From Haloarcula laminariae (lineage in GTDB: Archaea > Halobacteriota > Halobacteria > Halobacteriales > Haloarculaceae), in assembly GCF_025457605.1 (NCBI RefSeq), contig NZ_JAMZFY010000001.1, forward strand, positions 806,001 to 870,000: a stretch of 64,000 bases of DNA, read 5' to 3'. Numbering within the stretch: the first letter of the stretch is position 1; each line of letters begins with the position of its first letter. The notes under the pieces were generated by a model. It did no database searches. It was not told the origin of the DNA and saw only the letters and a list, made by a program, of their open reading frames with translations. Shown in pieces: positions 45,857 to 54,111 of the stretch. The translations under genes and the position numbers were made by a program.

Positions 45857-47092
45857 ATGCGTGACCGCTTTGACGTGGTAATCGCCGGGGCTGGTCCCGC
45901 CGGCGGCCAGTGTGCCCGCGACCTGGCCGAGCGGAACTACGACGTGCTGGTCCTCGAAACCGAGCCCGAAGACGAGTTCCCCCGTCAGAGCAACAAATCG
46001 ACGGCCGGTACCTTCCCGTCGGCGATGACCGCCTTCGCCATCCCCGACGAGGTCGTGATGCAGTACACCGACGAGGTCGTCCTCGAATCCCCGAACGACC
46101 ACTACACCCGCACCCAGACCGGCGCCGTCCTGGAGTTCGCCGAGTTCAAGCGCTTCCTCGTCGAGGACAGCCGCGAGAAGGGCGCGACCTACCGCTTCGA
46201 CTCCCGCGTGTCGGCCCCCATCATGGAGGACGGCGAGATTGCCGGGGTGCGGTACGACGGCGACAAGGAGGTGTACGCCGACATCGTCATCGACGCCACC
46301 GGCCCCGCCGCGCCGCTGGCGAAGAAACTCGACGTCTGTAACCTGGAACGGGAACACCAGGCCATCGGCATCGAGTACGAGTTCGAGAACGTCGCGGTGA
46401 ACCACGACGACTACGCCGACCTCCGGGACGCGATGATGCTCCGCCTGGACCACGACCTCGCCCCGGGCGGCTACTCCTGGATATTCCACACCGGCGAGGA
46501 CACGGCGAAGGTCGGCCTCTGTTACATCCAGAACGGCTCCCACCACAAGTACGCCAAGGAGGGGATGGGTATCGACGACTATCTGGAGTACTGGCTCGAT
46601 ACGGACCCCCGCTTCGACGACGCCGAGCGGATAGAGGGGACCCAGGCCCACCGGGGGTCGGCCCACATCCAGCCGCCAAAGTCGATGAGCACGGACAGCT
46701 TCATGGCCATCGGCGACACCGTCCCCACCATCGACCCGCTGTGGGGCGAGGGCATCCACAAGGGGATGAAGTCGGCCCGCGCCGCCGCCGCCACCGTCGA
46801 CGCGGCGCTGACCCCCGACGAGCCACAGACGGACGCCGACACCCTCTCCGTGTACGACCAGCTCTGGCACCGCGACGTGGCTCCGAAACACAACGCCCGG
46901 CTGATGATGACCGAGCTACTGTATCTCGCCCCCAACGAGCGATACGACGAACTGATGGACGACCTCCGGCGGACCGACAGCAACACGCTCGAACAGATAA
47001 ACCGCGGTGACCGCCGCGCCATCGCCGAGCTCGCTCACATCTCGGACCTCTCGCTGCTGGCGAAGTACGCCAAACGGCGGCTGTCCCGCTAG
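45857..47092 (+). CDS. Geranylgeranyl reductase-family FAD-dependent oxidoreductase
   Basis: The 411-residue flavoprotein has a Rossmann start (DVVIAGAGPAGGQCARDLAE) and the second FAD motif MAIGDTVPTIDPLWGEGIHKGMKSA. It resembles the geranylgeranyl reductases that saturate the isoprenoid tails of archaeal lipids or quinones. The catalytic details are not fixed by sequence. It is divergent from the DDxxD protein, hinting at a common pathway. The first ATG (45850) is out of frame; the start is at 45857. Confidence 0.8.
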   Translation: MRDRFDVVIAGAGPAGGQCARDLAERNYDVLVLETEPEDEFPRQSNKSTAGTFPSAMTAFAIPDEVVMQYTDEVVLESPNDHYTRTQTGAVLEFAEFKRFLVEDSREKGATYRFDSRVSAPIMEDGEIAGVRYDGDKEVYADIVIDATGPAAPLAKKLDVCNLEREHQAIGIEYEFENVAVNHDDYADLRDAMMLRLDHDLAPGGYSWIFHTGEDTAKVGLCYIQNGSHHKYAKEGMGIDDYLEYWLDTDPRFDDAERIEGTQAHRGSAHIQPPKSMSTDSFMAIGDTVPTIDPLWGEGIHKGMKSARAAAATVDAALTPDEPQTDADTLSVYDQLWHRDVAPKHNARLMMTELLYLAPNERYDELMDDLRRTDSNTLEQINRGDRRAIAELAHISDLSLLAKYAKRRLSR

Positions 47093-48053: not shown

Positions 48054-48515
48054 ATGCAGCCAGACGTCATCCTCTTCGGGCCGCTGGACACCGTCCTCGG
48101 GAGCGAGGGACCCGGCGGCGTGCTCGTCATCGAGTACGTCCTGTTGGCGCTCGTCCTCGCTAACTTCGGGACGCGACTGCTTGCCCACCGACGCCACGAG
48201 TCCCAGTACGAGGAGGGCGGTGCGGAGGAAATCACCCGCCATCCGGCACACATCGCGAGCAACGTCCTGTTGATTCTCACGTCGTTCCTCTACATGACCA
48301 TCGCCCACCACGGCGGGATGGTCATGTCGGTGCTCGTCCTCGGGGCAGTCATCACTGACTTCTTCGAGTTCGAGTCCCGCAAGGTCGAAGCGCGACGCGA
48401 CATCCCGCTCGAACGGCCCAAGGGCGCCATCGTCGCCGTTCTGGTCCTCGCGATGTACGCCAGCTACCAGGCGCTGTTCTGGCTCATCAAGGACCCCTGG
48501 TCCGCGGTCATCTGA
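48054..48515 (+). CDS. Four-helix membrane protein next to the respiratory island
   Basis: The 153-residue protein has about four membrane helices (residues 24-42, 66-84, 87-105, 124-145) and a conserved-looking charged loop HRRHESQYEEGG. I think it is a haloarchaea-specific family found next to cytochrome bc genes, but I recall the family name only loosely. It converges with the small subunits of that island. A role in complex assembly is inferred from position. Confidence 0.68.
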   Translation: MQPDVILFGPLDTVLGSEGPGGVLVIEYVLLALVLANFGTRLLAHRRHESQYEEGGAEEITRHPAHIASNVLLILTSFLYMTIAHHGGMVMSVLVLGAVITDFFEFESRKVEARRDIPLERPKGAIVAVLVLAMYASYQALFWLIKDPWSAVI

Positions 48516-48773: not shown

Positions 48774-49046
48774 TCAGGCCGAGCGCTCGTCGAGGTACTC
48801 GCGCAGTTCGCTGGCCAGGGGGATGAGGACCCAGAACGTCAGCGCGCCGAAGACGGCAAACCAGAAGAACGCGTCCATCAACAGCAGCGCTGCGGAGTCG
48901 AACACCGTCAGGGACTCCGCCGGCGGTAGCTCACCGATGAGCTGTGCCCCTTCGAAGCTCGGCGTCCGGTACCAGCCCGCGATGGTCATCCAGCCCAGGC
49001 CGCCAACCATGAGGGCGGCGAACCCTTTCATGAACTCGTCAGCCAT
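48774..49046 (-). CDS. Small two-helix membrane protein of the bc island
   Basis: The 90-residue protein has two membrane helices (residues 8-27 and 52-78) and ends in a charged helix SELREYLDERSA. Its ATG is within the end of the preceding gene (eight-base overlap), so they are coupled. A frame extension is open upstream but would overlap more. The family is probably a haloarchaeal accessory subunit of the bc complex. Confidence 0.72.
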   Translation of the reverse strand: MADEFMKGFAALMVGGLGWMTIAGWYRTPSFEGAQLIGELPPAESLTVFDSAALLLMDAFFWFAVFGALTFWVLIPLASELREYLDERSA

Positions 49047-49377
49047 TACTAGAGGGTTCGTCAGCGTCGTCTTTAGACTTTCCCATCTCTTCGGTGCGAA
49101 AGCGCGTCGAAAACGCATAGACCACGGTCCCAGCGAGGATGAGCCCGATGCCCAGAACGGCGATTGGGACGTCTATCTCCGAGGCCGGGGCCGACGCTCT
49201 CTCGGTCGCCACGTCGACGAGTATGAACCCGCCGACGACGCTCAGTATCGCAAACAGCGTCGAGAACACCGTCACAGTCTTGTAGAGGCGAAGCGGCACC
49301 ACGACTTCCCGCTGTTTGCCCTCGCCGCTGCTGGTTATCTGGGGCGGGTCCTCGGCGCTCGACTCGTCCTCGCTCAT
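49039..49377 (-). CDS. Small two-helix membrane protein of the bc island
   Basis: The 112-residue protein has two membrane helices (residues 30-52 and 66-88) and acidic, disordered ends (SEDESSAEDPPQ). It overlaps the start of the next gene by eight bases. It is separated from the cytochrome b C-terminal gene by 240 bases, which hold a repeat-like fragment. Likely a lineage-specific helper of the quinol-oxidising complex. Confidence 0.72.
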   Translation of the reverse strand: MSEDESSAEDPPQITSSGEGKQREVVVPLRLYKTVTVFSTLFAILSVVGGFILVDVATERASAPASEIDVPIAVLGIGLILAGTVVYAFSTRFRTEEMGKSKDDADEPSSNG

Positions 49378-49617: not shown

Positions 49618-50388
49618 TTATTTCGGCGGCCGCAGCCGGTAGTACCGGCGGTTGAGCGTGAACATGTACCCCTCACGCATGGTCTTCAGCACCGCGTAGG
49701 TGATCGTCGCGCTGATGATGGGCACCAGGAACGTCAGGTCGAAGAGGAGGTGCGAATCCATCGGGACGAGGTTCTTGATCGACAGGGCGGCGATGGTCAG
49801 GCTGAAGACGACGCCGGACATGCCGACGGCGGCCCAGAACGGCTGCTCGACGGGGCGTCGCGCCGACCCCTTGTTGAGGAAGGGGACGATGGCGACGAAG
49901 CCGACGACCACGACGTTTGCAAGCACACCGTAGGTTCGGTCGGCCATGATCTTCTGGCCGCCGAGAATCGACAGGTCGGGGTTCAGCGGGCCGAGTTTCA
50001 GCAGGCCAAAGGACCAGTAGAGATACCAGTCGGGCAGGATGATGGCGGGCGTGACCTGGGAGTTCGCGGGGTTTGGCATCTCCGGCGGGAGCGCCGCCGC
50101 CACGAACAGTATCATCCCGACGAAGAAGCTCGTCAGGGCGAGGTTGCGCATCATCTCGTGGGGCCAGGCCGGGAACGCCAGCACGTCCCGTTCCACGTAG
50201 TCGGACTGCTGGCGCAGGTCCTGGTCCTCGCGGCGGCCGCGTTCGAAGTACTCGTAGGTGAGCCGGGACAGGCCCTGCGTGCGCTGCTTGCGCTCGGACC
50301 ACGAGGGGGTCTCGTCGTCCGGGGCGACGATACCCGAGCCCGAGCCGTCCGTGCGAACGTCGTCGGTGTCTGAGTCGTTGTCGCTCAT
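49618..50388 (-). CDS. Cytochrome b, C-terminal subunit (subunit IV-like)
   Basis: The 256-residue protein starts with a 75-residue acidic tail then has about four helices. It carries the quinol-oxidation motif as PDWY (ILPDWYLYWSFGLLKL). In known complexes, PDWY accompanies low-potential menaquinone, PEWY high-potential quinones. It corresponds to the C-terminal half of cytochrome b or to subunit IV of cytochrome b6f. It begins four bases after the end of the cytochrome b6-like gene. Confidence 0.9.
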   Translation of the reverse strand: MSDNDSDTDDVRTDGSGSGIVAPDDETPSWSERKQRTQGLSRLTYEYFERGRREDQDLRQQSDYVERDVLAFPAWPHEMMRNLALTSFFVGMILFVAAALPPEMPNPANSQVTPAIILPDWYLYWSFGLLKLGPLNPDLSILGGQKIMADRTYGVLANVVVVGFVAIVPFLNKGSARRPVEQPFWAAVGMSGVVFSLTIAALSIKNLVPMDSHLLFDLTFLVPIISATITYAVLKTMREGYMFTLNRRYYRLRPPK

Positions 50389-50392
50389 TGTC

Positions 50393-51196
50393 TTAGTGTG
50401 GTTCCGCGATGCCCTGCATCCAGACGATGCCGATGTGGAGGGCGATGACGGCGGTCGTGATGAACGGCAGGAAGAACACGTGCAGGATGTACATCCGTTG
50501 CAGCGTGGACTGTGAGAGGGTGAACCCGCCGAACATCAGCTGTGCGACCCACTCGCCGATGAGCGGGATCGAGAGTGACATCTCGACGCCGATCTGGCCC
50601 GCCCAGTAGGAGAGCTGGCTCCACGGGAGCAGGTAGCCGGTGTACCCGAAGACCAGCGTCAGCGAGATGAGGATGATGCCGATGAGCCAGTTGAGCTCGC
50701 GCGGTTCCTTGTACGCGCCCGTGAAGTAGACGCGGAGCATGTGGAGGAACACGGCGGCGACCATGATCTGGGCGGCCCAGCGGTGGACCGAACGCAGGAA
50801 GTACCCCAGGTTGAGCTGGCCCATGATGAGCATCACCGAGTCGTACGCCACCGTCGCCGACCCGTCGGCGGCCGCCGCGGCGGGGGCGTAGTAGAACCCG
50901 AGCAGGGCGCCCGAGATGGCGGCGACGATGTACGCGACGGTCGAGAACGAACCGAGCGCGTACAGCGGATACCAGTACCAGAACTTGTTGTCGAGGTTGT
51001 ACTGCTCGGTGTGGCTCTTCGGCATCTGCATGTTGACCTTGTAGTAGAGATCTTCGAGTATCTCCAGGTAGTCAACGACGCGCAGGCGCTTGTCGAGCCA
51101 GATGAGTGCCGTCAGGTAGACGGTTTCCAGCGGTGACAGCTCGCGGGATTTCATCCACCCTTTGTGGTCGTGGTCGTCTTTGCGTTCTAAGCTCAT
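50393..51196 (-). CDS. Cytochrome b (b6-like) N-terminal subunit
   Basis: The 267-residue protein holds four main helices with the haem ligands. The first pair is in FLRSVHRWAAQIMVAAVFLH (13 residues between His). The second pair is HVFFLPFITTAVIALH, with 14 between, the spacing seen in cytochrome b6, not in bc1 b. There is no Cys in the whole chain, so the extra haem of b6f is absent. It oxidises menaquinol with the Rieske protein. It lies seven bases after the Rieske gene, in the same operon. Confidence 0.93.
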   Translation of the reverse strand: MSLERKDDHDHKGWMKSRELSPLETVYLTALIWLDKRLRVVDYLEILEDLYYKVNMQMPKSHTEQYNLDNKFWYWYPLYALGSFSTVAYIVAAISGALLGFYYAPAAAAADGSATVAYDSVMLIMGQLNLGYFLRSVHRWAAQIMVAAVFLHMLRVYFTGAYKEPRELNWLIGIILISLTLVFGYTGYLLPWSQLSYWAGQIGVEMSLSIPLIGEWVAQLMFGGFTLSQSTLQRMYILHVFFLPFITTAVIALHIGIVWMQGIAEPH

Positions 51197-51202
51197 GGTT
51201 GG

Positions 51203-52066
51203 TTATCCCTCGGTCTGTGGCGGGCGCGGCAGCGCCACGAACTGTTTCTGGACGGGGCTGAACGGGTCGTACACCGACTGGTGACACTGACAGTAGATGG
51301 CGTTCTCGGCACCGAAGTTCGCGCTCCCCTCCTGGGTCTTGAAGCCGGGGACACAGCAGAAGTGCGTACACTTGTTGAGCCAGGCGATAAAGCCCTGGTC
51401 GGTGGCTTCCGAGATGAAGTCCTGGATGCTACTGGAGAGGCTACTGTACTTCCCTTCGCCGTTGGCCATCTTCTCGACCTCGACGGAGCGGATTATCTGG
51501 GCCGAGACGCCGCCCTCGTCCGTCGAGCGCCAGTTGGCGCTGGCGGGCTTGCCGATTCCGGCGTTGCCGATGCCGTTGCCCCACTCCTGGTAATCGTCGA
51601 ACATGTCGACGGTCAGCGTGGCGCCCTTCTCGTATTCTCCCTGCCATTCGAAGTCCCCTTGAGTGTTGAGCAAAGCGTTTTCGGCTTCGGCCTGGGGGTA
51701 AATCCCGGGCGACGTCTGGACACCGCAGTACTGGAACCAGGCTGAGGAGTAGTCGATGCCGCTTCCGCCGTAGTCCCTGTCGATAGCGACGCCGGCCTCT
51801 TCGTCGTACTCCGGCCAGTGTCCCTTCAGTTCCCCGCCGTCTATCTCGATGGGGATGATGGGCATCCCGCGCGGTGCGGGACCGTCCGTGTTCTCGACGG
51901 CGACGAAAGTGGTCGTCCCGCCACCTTCGCCGGAGGAACTGGTCAGCGAGTCGGCCGCCGCGGCGCCGCCGACGCCGACCGCCGAAAGCGCCGCGCTACC
52001 GACGACACCCGATACGAATCGTCGTCTTCCGGTCTCAGCCGGATACTTGTCTTCGTCTAGTGGCAT
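51203..52066 (-). CDS. Rieske iron-sulphur protein of the bc complex
   Basis: The 287-residue precursor has a Tat signal (GRRRFVSGVVGSAAL) and the two Rieske boxes CTHFCC and CQCHQSVYDP near the C-terminus. It has the Cys pair for the stabilising disulphide. A long beta domain (residues 60-200) of haloarchaeal type is inserted. It accepts electrons at the quinol site outside the cell. The ATG is at 52066, one base after the preceding gene's stop. A longer frame is open but lacks support. Confidence 0.92.
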   Translation of the reverse strand: MPLDEDKYPAETGRRRFVSGVVGSAALSAVGVGGAAAADSLTSSSGEGGGTTTFVAVENTDGPAPRGMPIIPIEIDGGELKGHWPEYDEEAGVAIDRDYGGSGIDYSSAWFQYCGVQTSPGIYPQAEAENALLNTQGDFEWQGEYEKGATLTVDMFDDYQEWGNGIGNAGIGKPASANWRSTDEGGVSAQIIRSVEVEKMANGEGKYSSLSSSIQDFISEATDQGFIAWLNKCTHFCCVPGFKTQEGSANFGAENAIYCQCHQSVYDPFSPVQKQFVALPRPPQTEG

Positions 52067-52067
52067 G

Positions 52068-52487
52068 TTATTTCTTGTAGTAGGGGTAGACAGCGCGTTT
52101 GACAGTCTCAACGAGTTGGTCCTTGTCGGCCATACTGGCCCCGTCGACGTCGTCCTGCCGGATGTAGAGGTCCTCCCACTTGCGCCGGCGCTTCTTGACG
52201 ATCATCACGTCGGGGAGGAACTCCTTGCGGTACAGCAGCATGATGAAGGCCAGGTCGATGAAGATGGCCGTCAGGACGCCACCGAGGAACATGTTGGCCT
52301 CGATGAGGCTGACAGTCAGCGTCGCTCCGATACCGGACGCCCAGCCGGCTATCATACCGTAGGTGAAGAGGCCGACGAGGCCGACCTGGATGACGGTCAG
52401 GAGGACGATGCCGACCGCCGCGGCCGTGCTCTCACGCGGGGGCTCGTAGCGGTGGATATCGCCGTAGGTGGAGCCTTCCGACGCCAT
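52068..52487 (-). CDS. Small membrane protein between halocyanin and Rieske genes
   Basis: The 139-residue protein has two or three helices (residues 22-45, 52-78, 78-100) and a Lys/Arg-rich C-terminal cytoplasmic part (KKRRRKWEDLYI). Its ATG overlaps the halocyanin stop by four bases (ATGA). I believe it is a family found only in haloarchaeal bc islands. Likely a structural subunit, inferred from its invariant place in the operon. Confidence 0.75.
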   Translation of the reverse strand: MASEGSTYGDIHRYEPPRESTAAAVGIVLLTVIQVGLVGLFTYGMIAGWASGIGATLTVSLIEANMFLGGVLTAIFIDLAFIMLLYRKEFLPDVMIVKKRRRKWEDLYIRQDDVDGASMADKDQLVETVKRAVYPYYKK

Positions 52488-53161
52488 CAGTTGTTCCCTC
52501 CGCTGGTGTGGGGCGACTCACCGTACTTCAGCTGGAAGAAGGTGAAGATGAGCGGGATGATGACAGCAAGCCCCGCCCCGAAGCCGACGTAGTGGGGCTG
52601 GATGGGGACGCCGGCTTCGTGGGGGTCGACCTCAACGGGGCCGCCGCCGCCGAGCGACTGTGTCGGGTAGTCCTCCCCGACGACGATGCTGCCCTTCATC
52701 TGGAGCCCTTCGTGGGGGACACAGACGTAGTTGTAGATGCCGTCCTCTTCGAACGTGTGTTCGTAGTTGACGCCGGAACTGGAGACGGCCTCGCCCGAAT
52801 CGAGCGGGCCGTCGCCGTTCGAAACCACGTTGTGACTCCCGTCGCCGGTCCAGTCCCACTCTACGGTCGCGCCGTTGTCGACGTGGACGGCCGGCGGGCC
52901 GAAGCCGTAGGCGCCGCCGTTGGCCTGTACACCGACTTCGACCGTTACCGTGTCCTGGCCCGTCGCGTCGACGGTGCTACCGGGGCCGGAGAAGTTCCCG
53001 ACGTCGTCGAGGTAGCCGCCGAAGTCCGGGGCTGTGTCGCCGCCGCCGCCGGACTCGGTGCCCTCCTCCTGGGCTGCGGCCGGGCCGGCAGCGCCGAGGG
53101 CCGCCGCACCGGCCGTGGCACCCCCCGCCGTCTGGACGAATTCCCGCCTGTTCATGTTCAT
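52487..53161 (-). CDS. Membrane-anchored halocyanin (blue copper protein)
   Basis: The 224-residue precursor has a Tat signal (MNRREFVQTAGGATAGAA), a cupredoxin domain (residues 60-160) and a C-terminal membrane helix (VGFGAGLAVIIPLIFTFF). Copper ligands are visible: His in GSHNVVSN, then C, H and M in CVPHEGLQM. It is the probable electron acceptor of the Rieske protein, taking the place of cytochrome c. The ATG at 53161 is 25 nt below a TATA-like box. Confidence 0.92.
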   Translation of the reverse strand: MNMNRREFVQTAGGATAGAAALGAAGPAAAQEEGTESGGGGDTAPDFGGYLDDVGNFSGPGSTVDATGQDTVTVEVGVQANGGAYGFGPPAVHVDNGATVEWDWTGDGSHNVVSNGDGPLDSGEAVSSSGVNYEHTFEEDGIYNYVCVPHEGLQMKGSIVVGEDYPTQSLGGGGPVEVDPHEAGVPIQPHYVGFGAGLAVIIPLIFTFFQLKYGESPHTSGGNN

Positions 53162-53183: not shown

Positions 53184-53189
53184 TATAAA
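53184..53189 (-). promoter_or_regulatory. TATA-like box of the halocyanin-cytochrome operon
   Basis: The minus strand reads TTTATA, 25 nt above the ATG at 53161, typical for a leaderless message that then covers the rest of the bc operon. Confidence 0.6.
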
Positions 53190-53307: not shown

Positions 53308-54111
53308 TCACTCCCCCCGTCCGTCCTCGTCCGTGAGTTCGGGGACGAAGTCGGGGCGCTCGCCGTCCTCCAGGCCGATGGCGCGCAGCCGGTCGCGGTA
53401 CTCCTCGGCCCGGAACTTATCGGAGAGGCGCGCGTTGGCGACGGTGAAAAACAGCACAAGCGAGACGCCGATGAAGGCGAGCCCGCCCACGACCAGGAAC
53501 TCGATGTTCGTCCCCGGGCCGCCCAGCCCGAACGCCCCGAGCAGCGCGAACACCGCCCCCGCGAGCATCGCCAGGCCGGCGAGTAGCTGTACGCCGGCGA
53601 TGACCTGTAACATGCGGTTGCCGAGCTCGCCCCCGCCCTGTGGGACCGCCTCGGGCTCCGGCAGCGGGTTCTCCGGCACCGTCTCCGGCACCTCGTAGCT
53701 CTCCATCGAGCACAGCGCGACGGTCGGTTTCACGTCCCGGAGGACGGTCCCTTCGCCCTCGACCGAGCCGTCGGGGTAGACGATAGCGTACCCCTCGTCG
53801 GAGTAGGCCAGCACGCGCGGGGGGTTCTCGCTTCGCTCGATGCGGGCGAACACGTCCCGGTTGGCCACCCGGCTCCGGAGGTCGCGTTCGACGCGTGACA
53901 GCAGTTCCCCGCCGGTTATCCAGGAGTCCTCGTCGAAGGCGGCGTCCCACTCCTCGGCGGTCATCTCCGCCATGTCGGCCGGGCCGAAGTCGTCGAAGTC
54001 GTACTTCTCTTCGACCTGCTCACGGAGCGCCTCGACGTCCTCGGAATCGGTTTCCGTGGGACTTCCATCGTCCTGTCCCGCTCGCACCTGCTCGTCCGAG
54101 GAATCGCTCAT
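53308..54111 (-). CDS. Two-helix acidic membrane protein upstream of halocyanin
   Basis: The 267-residue protein has an acidic N-terminal half, a soluble region (residues 60-150), two membrane helices (173-197 and 203-227) and a short cytoplasmic end. I cannot name the family firmly; I recall it as one of the haloarchaeal bc-island proteins. It sits 146 bases upstream of the halocyanin promoter on the same strand. Perhaps a helper in complex assembly. Confidence 0.72.
   Translation of the reverse strand: MSDSSDEQVRAGQDDGSPTETDSEDVEALREQVEEKYDFDDFGPADMAEMTAEEWDAAFDEDSWITGGELLSRVERDLRSRVANRDVFARIERSENPPRVLAYSDEGYAIVYPDGSVEGEGTVLRDVKPTVALCSMESYEVPETVPENPLPEPEAVPQGGGELGNRMLQVIAGVQLLAGLAMLAGAVFALLGAFGLGGPGTNIEFLVVGGLAFIGVSLVLFFTVANARLSDKFRAEEYRDRLRAIGLEDGERPDFVPELTDEDGRGE

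Follow-up and report, generated by a model that had tools for sequence, protein, structure and literature searches.

We analyzed a 64,000-nucleotide (nt) stretch of the Haloarcula laminariae genome, referred to here as the window (GCF_025457605.1, NZ_JAMZFY010000001.1, positions 806,001-870,000, forward strand), with a focus on the locus at 49618-53161, which encodes a haloarchaeal complex III. When gene order, sequence motifs, profile comparison, and distribution are considered together, we arrive at a reading to which we assign a probability of roughly 0.78: the complex would contain a circularly permuted Rieske protein, use a halocyanin in place of cytochrome c1 or f, have no covalently bound haem cn, and include DUF7318 as a subunit. 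An earlier reading of the same DNA (the original prediction) had described a b6f-like quinol oxidase without cytochrome c or haem cn. The span that it gave stands and holds five genes; it had missed DUF7318 and DUF7319 as well as the unusual order within the Rieske protein. The genes run on the minus strand from 53161 to 49618, 5' to 3', as halocyanin, DUF7318, Rieske, petB, and petD, with the following features.

53308-54111, minus strand: DUF7319 (PF24003), a soluble domain and two transmembrane segments, upstream of the operon
53184-53189, minus strand: TATA-like box TTTATA upstream of halocyanin, read directly; fits a leaderless transcript
52487-53161, minus strand: halocyanin (TIGR03102, PF00127) with a Tat-like signal, one cupredoxin domain, and one C-terminal transmembrane segment
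52068-52487, minus strand: DUF7318 (PF24002), a two-helix membrane subunit
51203-52066, minus strand: Rieske 2Fe-2S protein, predicted to be circularly permuted from CTHFCC...CQCHQSVYDP, segment tests, and outgroup comparison
51821-51883, minus strand: Rieske Pro-loop strand GPAPRGMPIIPIEIDGGELKG, residues 62-82, N-terminal here and C-terminal in canonical Rieske proteins
51725-51727, minus strand: Rieske Cys114 in QYCG, conserved, candidate partner of the extra Cys237
51353-51370, minus strand: Rieske first cluster loop CTHFCC, residues 233-238, with an extra Cys at the canonical Gly position
51269-51292, minus strand: Rieske second cluster loop CQCHQSVY, residues 259-266, with Ser and Tyr retained
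50393-51196, minus strand: PetB, cytochrome b6-like (PF00033, E value 1.7e-44), with Ala80 at the b6 Cys35 position and Trp259 at Arg207
49618-50388, minus strand: PetD, C-terminal half of cytochrome b (PF00032), with PDWY at 50023-50034 and four hydrophobic segments

A circularly permuted Rieske protein

The Rieske protein of the window was detected through NCBIfam and profile comparison only; it has no Pfam Rieske domain, and its match to the NCBIfam model Rieske_proteo (E value 2.5e-7) lies below the cut-off. The two Cys and two His ligands and the disulfide pair are present in all 74 Rieske sequences extracted, some of which come from overlapping loci. The motifs CTHFCC and CQCHQSVYDP sit near the C-terminus, and an element of the form GPxPRxLPQLPI...G.L (residues 62-82) precedes the cluster, whereas canonical Rieske proteins have that element after the cluster loops. 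The canonical order, cluster loops and then Pro loop, is reversed in the haloarchaeal copies checked. In 72 of the 74 sequences a single GPA[PT]R motif is present, and it lies ahead of CTHxCC (L174 and L178 lack the exact motif). The C-terminus no longer holds the Pro-loop element, and from CTH onward it has a median length of only 52 residues.

The displaced segment finds its counterpart where a permutation would place it. A profile of Rieske residues 53-80 reaches 23-29 bits against four nar-type Rieske proteins, the match falling at residues 200-225 beyond the cluster, compared with a shuffled maximum of 3.5, and a profile of a longer segment hits this post-cluster site in 20 of 20 targets (19 nar-type proteins and that of the outgroup locus L205, described below). 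Profile matches to actinobacterial QcrA reveal the same segment swap. BLASTP against the L205 Rieske protein likewise returns swapped blocks, with residues 169-276 aligned to 90-189 (E value 1e-9) and residues 62-116 aligned to 202-235 (E value 3e-4), the second block extending to the YCGV cysteine. The haloarchaeal Rieske protein is, as predicted from these alignments, a natural circular permutant. Extra copies of this Rieske protein are found in some haloarchaea (L178 and L179), some of them on plasmids of Haladaptatus, Halobaculum, and Halorussus.

The Gly of the canonical CTHLGC loop is Cys (CTHxCC) in all 74 haloarchaeal sequences, and Cys114 (QYCG) is invariant in the haloarchaeal alignment. 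Both cysteines are present in the L205 outgroup (CPHACC and YCGV), and the position of the extra Cys is Gly in nar-type and Bacillus Rieske proteins. It may reasonably be inferred that Cys114 and Cys237 form a second disulfide.

DUF7318, DUF7319, and operon structure

Against the actinobacterial QcrA model NF050121, the DUF7318 protein of the window aligns to the N-terminal hairpin with an E value of 0.004, and its counterpart in L040 does so with 5.6e-5. In all 19 nar-type loci, the gene just upstream of Rieske is an open reading frame (ORF) that matches the DUF7318 profile (hhalign E value, 2.8e-7), and the DUF7318-like protein of L205 exceeds the PF24002 cut-off. Since QcrA, nar-type, and L205 proteins all match, DUF7318 can be regarded as a Rieske-associated membrane hairpin, and the hairpins are homologous, fused in QcrA and separate in archaea. 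In one nar-type locus (L183:3022-3594), the subunit upstream of Rieske has a weak N-terminal CopD match beside the DUF7318-like hairpin. PDB profile searches with DUF7319 and DUF7318 returned nothing usable.

In one sample of 194 genomes of the class, b6-type petB, a Rieske protein of the window's kind, and DUF7318 are each found in 138 genomes, with the same carriers listed; the petB count is 142 matches minus four weak nar-type ones. DUF7319 is present in 137 of the 194 and, among petB carriers, is absent only from G021. DUF7319 is an obligate genomic partner of haloarchaeal petB.

All 35 genus-level loci with a full operon share the order halocyanin-DUF7318-(Rieske)-petB-petD. Family f4 and G021 have the Rieske gene elsewhere, and DUF7318 and halocyanin stay with petB and petD. 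A TATA-like box lies 15-50 nt upstream of halocyanin in 33 of 35 genus representatives, and none of these representatives has it before DUF7318, Rieske, petB, or petD; halocyanin therefore heads the transcript, as had been proposed. Such a box precedes DUF7319 in only 2 of 34 cases, and DUF7319 is probably transcribed separately from the operon.

Halocyanin in the position of cytochrome c

The halocyanin of the window scores 154 bits against TIGR03102 (cut-off, 93.8) and has the His, Cys, His, and Met copper ligands of a cupredoxin. Its description as membrane tethered is borne out by the single C-terminal transmembrane segment, and both this segment and the ligand motif C-x2-H...M recur in the halocyanins of 35 of 35 genera. 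The reported absence of CxxCH from the island also holds, for 0 of 8 island proteins contain it, nor does any ORF of at least 100 amino acids in the window. The window genome gives no match to Cytochrom_C_asm, which marks cytochrome c maturation (CCM), or to Cytochrome_CBB3, and 128 of the 138 petB carriers, the window genome included, give none to Cytochrom_C_asm. No cytochrome f or other c-type subunit of the b6f kind was found by these means (CxxCH in the island; CCM and CBB3 in the genome). menB is present.

Additional insight is gained from L205, a locus of genome G389, which belongs to the same phylum and another class. Its gene order is cytochrome c, DUF7318-like, canonical Rieske, petB, and petD. 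The cytochrome c has a CVSCH motif and a C-terminal hydrophobic stretch, and in haloarchaea its position is occupied by the C-terminally anchored halocyanin. PetB of L205 is 48% identical to that of the window and keeps the Cys35 equivalent in YCLGG. The base composition of L205 agrees with that of three other contigs of G389, which is the only carrier of a petB relative among 58 genomes of its class. The actinobacterial gene order is qcrC-qcrA-qcrB, and the haloarchaeal operon is collinear with it. The petD gene of the outgroup locus (L205:7096-8064) encodes a PetD-like protein in which half of a cytochrome b is joined to a ferredoxin-like part, a C-terminal 4Fe-4S dicluster domain that matches QmoC/HdrC models.

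The electron path in the original prediction, which runs from menaquinol through the Rieske protein and on to halocyanin, remains the best interpretation and is well supported: halocyanin heads the transcript in nearly all genera, CCM is absent from most carriers, and the outgroup has cytochrome c where haloarchaea have halocyanin. The idea itself, as discussed below, is not new.

A split cytochrome b without the haem cn anchor

petB and petD are separate genes, in agreement with the split cytochrome b proposed earlier, and spinach cytochrome b6 is the best PDB match of PetB (E value 1.2e-43). The four haem-ligand His of the cytochrome b core are present together with a Rieske protein, which places the complex in the Rieske/cytochrome b superfamily. 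The second His pair (H239/H254) has 14 residues between its members, as stated, but this spacing was rejected as a b6f marker because the unsplit nar-type, Rhodococcus, and Streptomyces cytochromes b checked have it too. Subunit IV of b6f has three helices; a simple hydropathy scan of PetD gives four hydrophobic segments, and the PetD profile aligns through the helix-H region of actinobacterial cytochrome b. The term b6f-like is thus apt for the split, which is common to b6f, but not for the undiagnostic His spacing or the four-segment PetD, and in gene order as well as in its QcrA-like hairpin the system is closer in kind to actinobacterial qcrCAB. The cytochrome b tree was poorly resolved and was not used for origin. 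A plasmid search returned mainly bacterial bc1/bcc cytochromes b. One locus, L067 (G159:C19), carries an additional copy of petB, with about 74% identity to that of the window and no other operon gene detected in the 12 kb fetched.

Neither PetB nor PetD of the window contains Cys, just as the original prediction had noted, and among the haloarchaeal petB loci fetched, PetB has Cys in L034 and L059 only, at positions 112/122, in a loop and not at the Cys35 site. A survey of other Halobacteria, suggested at the time as a check, found no Cys at that site and the Qo-site motif PDWY in every haloarchaeal b6-type PetD extracted, as in PetD of the window. For the haloarchaeal loci fetched (at least one per genus), the alignment rows displayed have Ala, Ser, or Thr at the Cys35 site. 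The Cys itself is retained in spinach and cyanobacterial b6 (PDB), in 80 Bacillota QcrB proteins, and in L205, so that its absence is most simply explained by loss in the haloarchaeal lineage; the Bacillota loci were retrieved with a QcrB query, and only the loci returned serve as evidence. The YxLG context around the position is retained. At the Arg207/Lys208 positions the haloarchaeal alignment has Trp and Met/Val/Ile, but the Arg207 position is not decisive for haem cn because the Cys-bearing outgroup also has Trp there. Of the claim that haem cn is missing, the part that stands is the loss of the known covalent Cys anchor; the absence of the haem is something we infer, and it could be bound non-covalently or otherwise.

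Proposed mechanism and alternatives

It can be hypothesized that PetB and PetD together make up a split cytochrome b, whose two b haems are held by the four conserved His, and that menaquinol is oxidized at the PDWY Qo site. The first electron would pass to the permuted Rieske protein and then to the C-terminally anchored halocyanin that replaces cytochrome c1/f, while the second would travel via the b haems to a quinone reduction site presumably devoid of covalent haem cn. DUF7318 may act as a structural subunit that corresponds to the N-terminal hairpin of a QcrA-like Rieske protein, now detached from it, and DUF7319 may be an obligate partner of the complex. The operon as a whole would then represent qcrC-qcrA-qcrB with halocyanin for the cytochrome c gene, qcrA split and permuted, and qcrB split. 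Whether this amounts to a bCu enzyme, in which the anchored halocyanin is an integral subunit, the haem cn site is lost, the permutant Rieske protein has the Cys114-Cys237 disulfide, and DUF7318 is the detached QcrA hairpin, we consider an even bet.

Several observations weigh against the picture drawn here. The outgroup is a single contig of a metagenome-assembled genome with an incomplete assembly. The Ser and Tyr of the second cluster loop, kept in all 74 haloarchaeal Rieske sequences (Bacillus QcrA was read as having no Ser), raise the Rieske potential (PMC12954380), and their retention predicts a potential above that usual for menaquinol enzymes. An AlphaFold2 model of the window Rieske protein alone had a predicted local distance difference test (pLDDT) score of 35 and was set aside, which leaves sequence as the basis for the permuted fold. 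Bacillus QcrA shows no match to the N-terminal GPAPR segment, and the permutation comparison therefore rests on nar-type, actinobacterial, and outgroup proteins. With this mismatch, a segment of only about 27 residues, and a conserved ALPRP in the haloarchaeal C-terminus itself, the match could be put down to chance or convergence without any circular permutation. That explanation is very unlikely in view of the scores of the four nar-type targets relative to the shuffled maximum, the same-place match in every nar-type and outgroup target, the short C-terminal remainder from which the element is missing, and an L205 match that reaches the YCGV cysteine.

The complex could also be an ordinary b6f/bc enzyme whose c-type cytochrome is encoded elsewhere or attaches haem in a non-standard manner, halocyanin being only a downstream mobile carrier. 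Ten of the 138 petB carriers do have Cytochrom_C_asm matches, and c-type cytochromes were earlier purified from haloarchaea without known genes, the "haloarchaea paradox" (PMC4429474; also PMC8305020), which keeps non-standard covalent haem in play. Set against this are the missing CCM and Cytochrome_CBB3 matches of the window genome and the missing CCM matches of most carriers, the conserved operon without a CxxCH protein, and the correspondence between the cytochrome c position of the outgroup and that of halocyanin, and we regard such an enzyme as rather unlikely. A haem cn pocket that kept its haem non-covalently despite the Cys loss would fit the retained YxLG context, but it is unlikely given Ala, Ser, or Thr throughout at the Cys35 equivalent and the changed Arg207/Lys208 positions, although the Arg position is not decisive.

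Neighboring genes

The following genes lie on the downstream side of the operon.

49039-49377, minus strand: DUF7315 small membrane protein (PF23997), usual downstream neighbor by synteny, role uncertain
48774-49118, minus strand: DUF7314 small membrane protein (PF23996), usual downstream neighbor by synteny, role uncertain

A DUF7313 membrane protein is encoded on the opposite strand at 48054-48515; it is often near the operon, with variable position and strand. Further downstream, 45857-47092 encodes a flavin adenine dinucleotide (FAD)-dependent protein with matches to geranylgeranyl reductase and lycopene cyclase-like models.

Significance and comparison with known systems

The bifurcated Q cycle of textbook complex III is driven by the moving cluster of its Rieske subunit, and a natural circular permutant still working beside the Qo site would show how far Rieske topology can vary. 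In addition, two haloarchaeal DUF families gain a likely home, operon-level exchange of cytochrome c for a copper protein is supported, and the results bear on the paradox of haloarchaeal cytochromes c without genes. Apparently new are the permutation itself, the homology of DUF7318, the co-distribution, and the swap seen against the outgroup. No report of a circularly permuted Rieske protein was found in the literature searched, and none of DUF7318/QcrA homology, DUF7319 co-distribution, or Cys35 loss in the accessible texts; neither set covers Baymann et al. 2012, a study cited in PMC7599335 that reportedly deals with the split complex as the second Rieske/cytb complex of haloarchaea, and a prior description of the permutation is possible.

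The closest known system is the same complex, haloarchaeal PetABC, as described for Haloferax volcanii (HVO_0841, HVO_0842, and HVO_2620), with a split b6-like cytochrome b, menaquinone, and halocyanin as the likely carrier (PMC8305020). Because that work already has the b6f likeness of petABC, menaquinone as the quinone, and halocyanin as the probable carrier, the core claim is not new; it also reports that about one third of haloarchaea are without complex III.

With b6f, the haloarchaeal complex shares a cytochrome b split at the same point and the HX14H second His pair, but it differs in having neither Cys35 nor cytochrome f and in its four-segment PetD and permuted Rieske protein. Bacillus QcrABC, a menaquinol:cytochrome c reductase, has the split cytochrome b, PDWY, and menaquinone use in common with it, whereas in Bacillus the Cys is retained (YCFGG in 80 of 80), QcrC carries a fused cytochrome c, and the Rieske protein is without the Ser. 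The nar-type Rieske/cytb complex of haloarchaea shares HX14H and a DUF7318-like subunit adjoining Rieske, but its cytochrome b is unsplit, its Qo motif is PDWF, and its Rieske protein has the canonical order, with CTHAGC in most. Finally, actinobacterial bcc (qcrC-qcrA-qcrB) shares the gene order, the N-terminal hairpin of QcrA, and helix H in the C-terminal half of cytochrome b; there, however, QcrA is one canonical protein, QcrB is unsplit, and QcrC is a dihaem cytochrome c.

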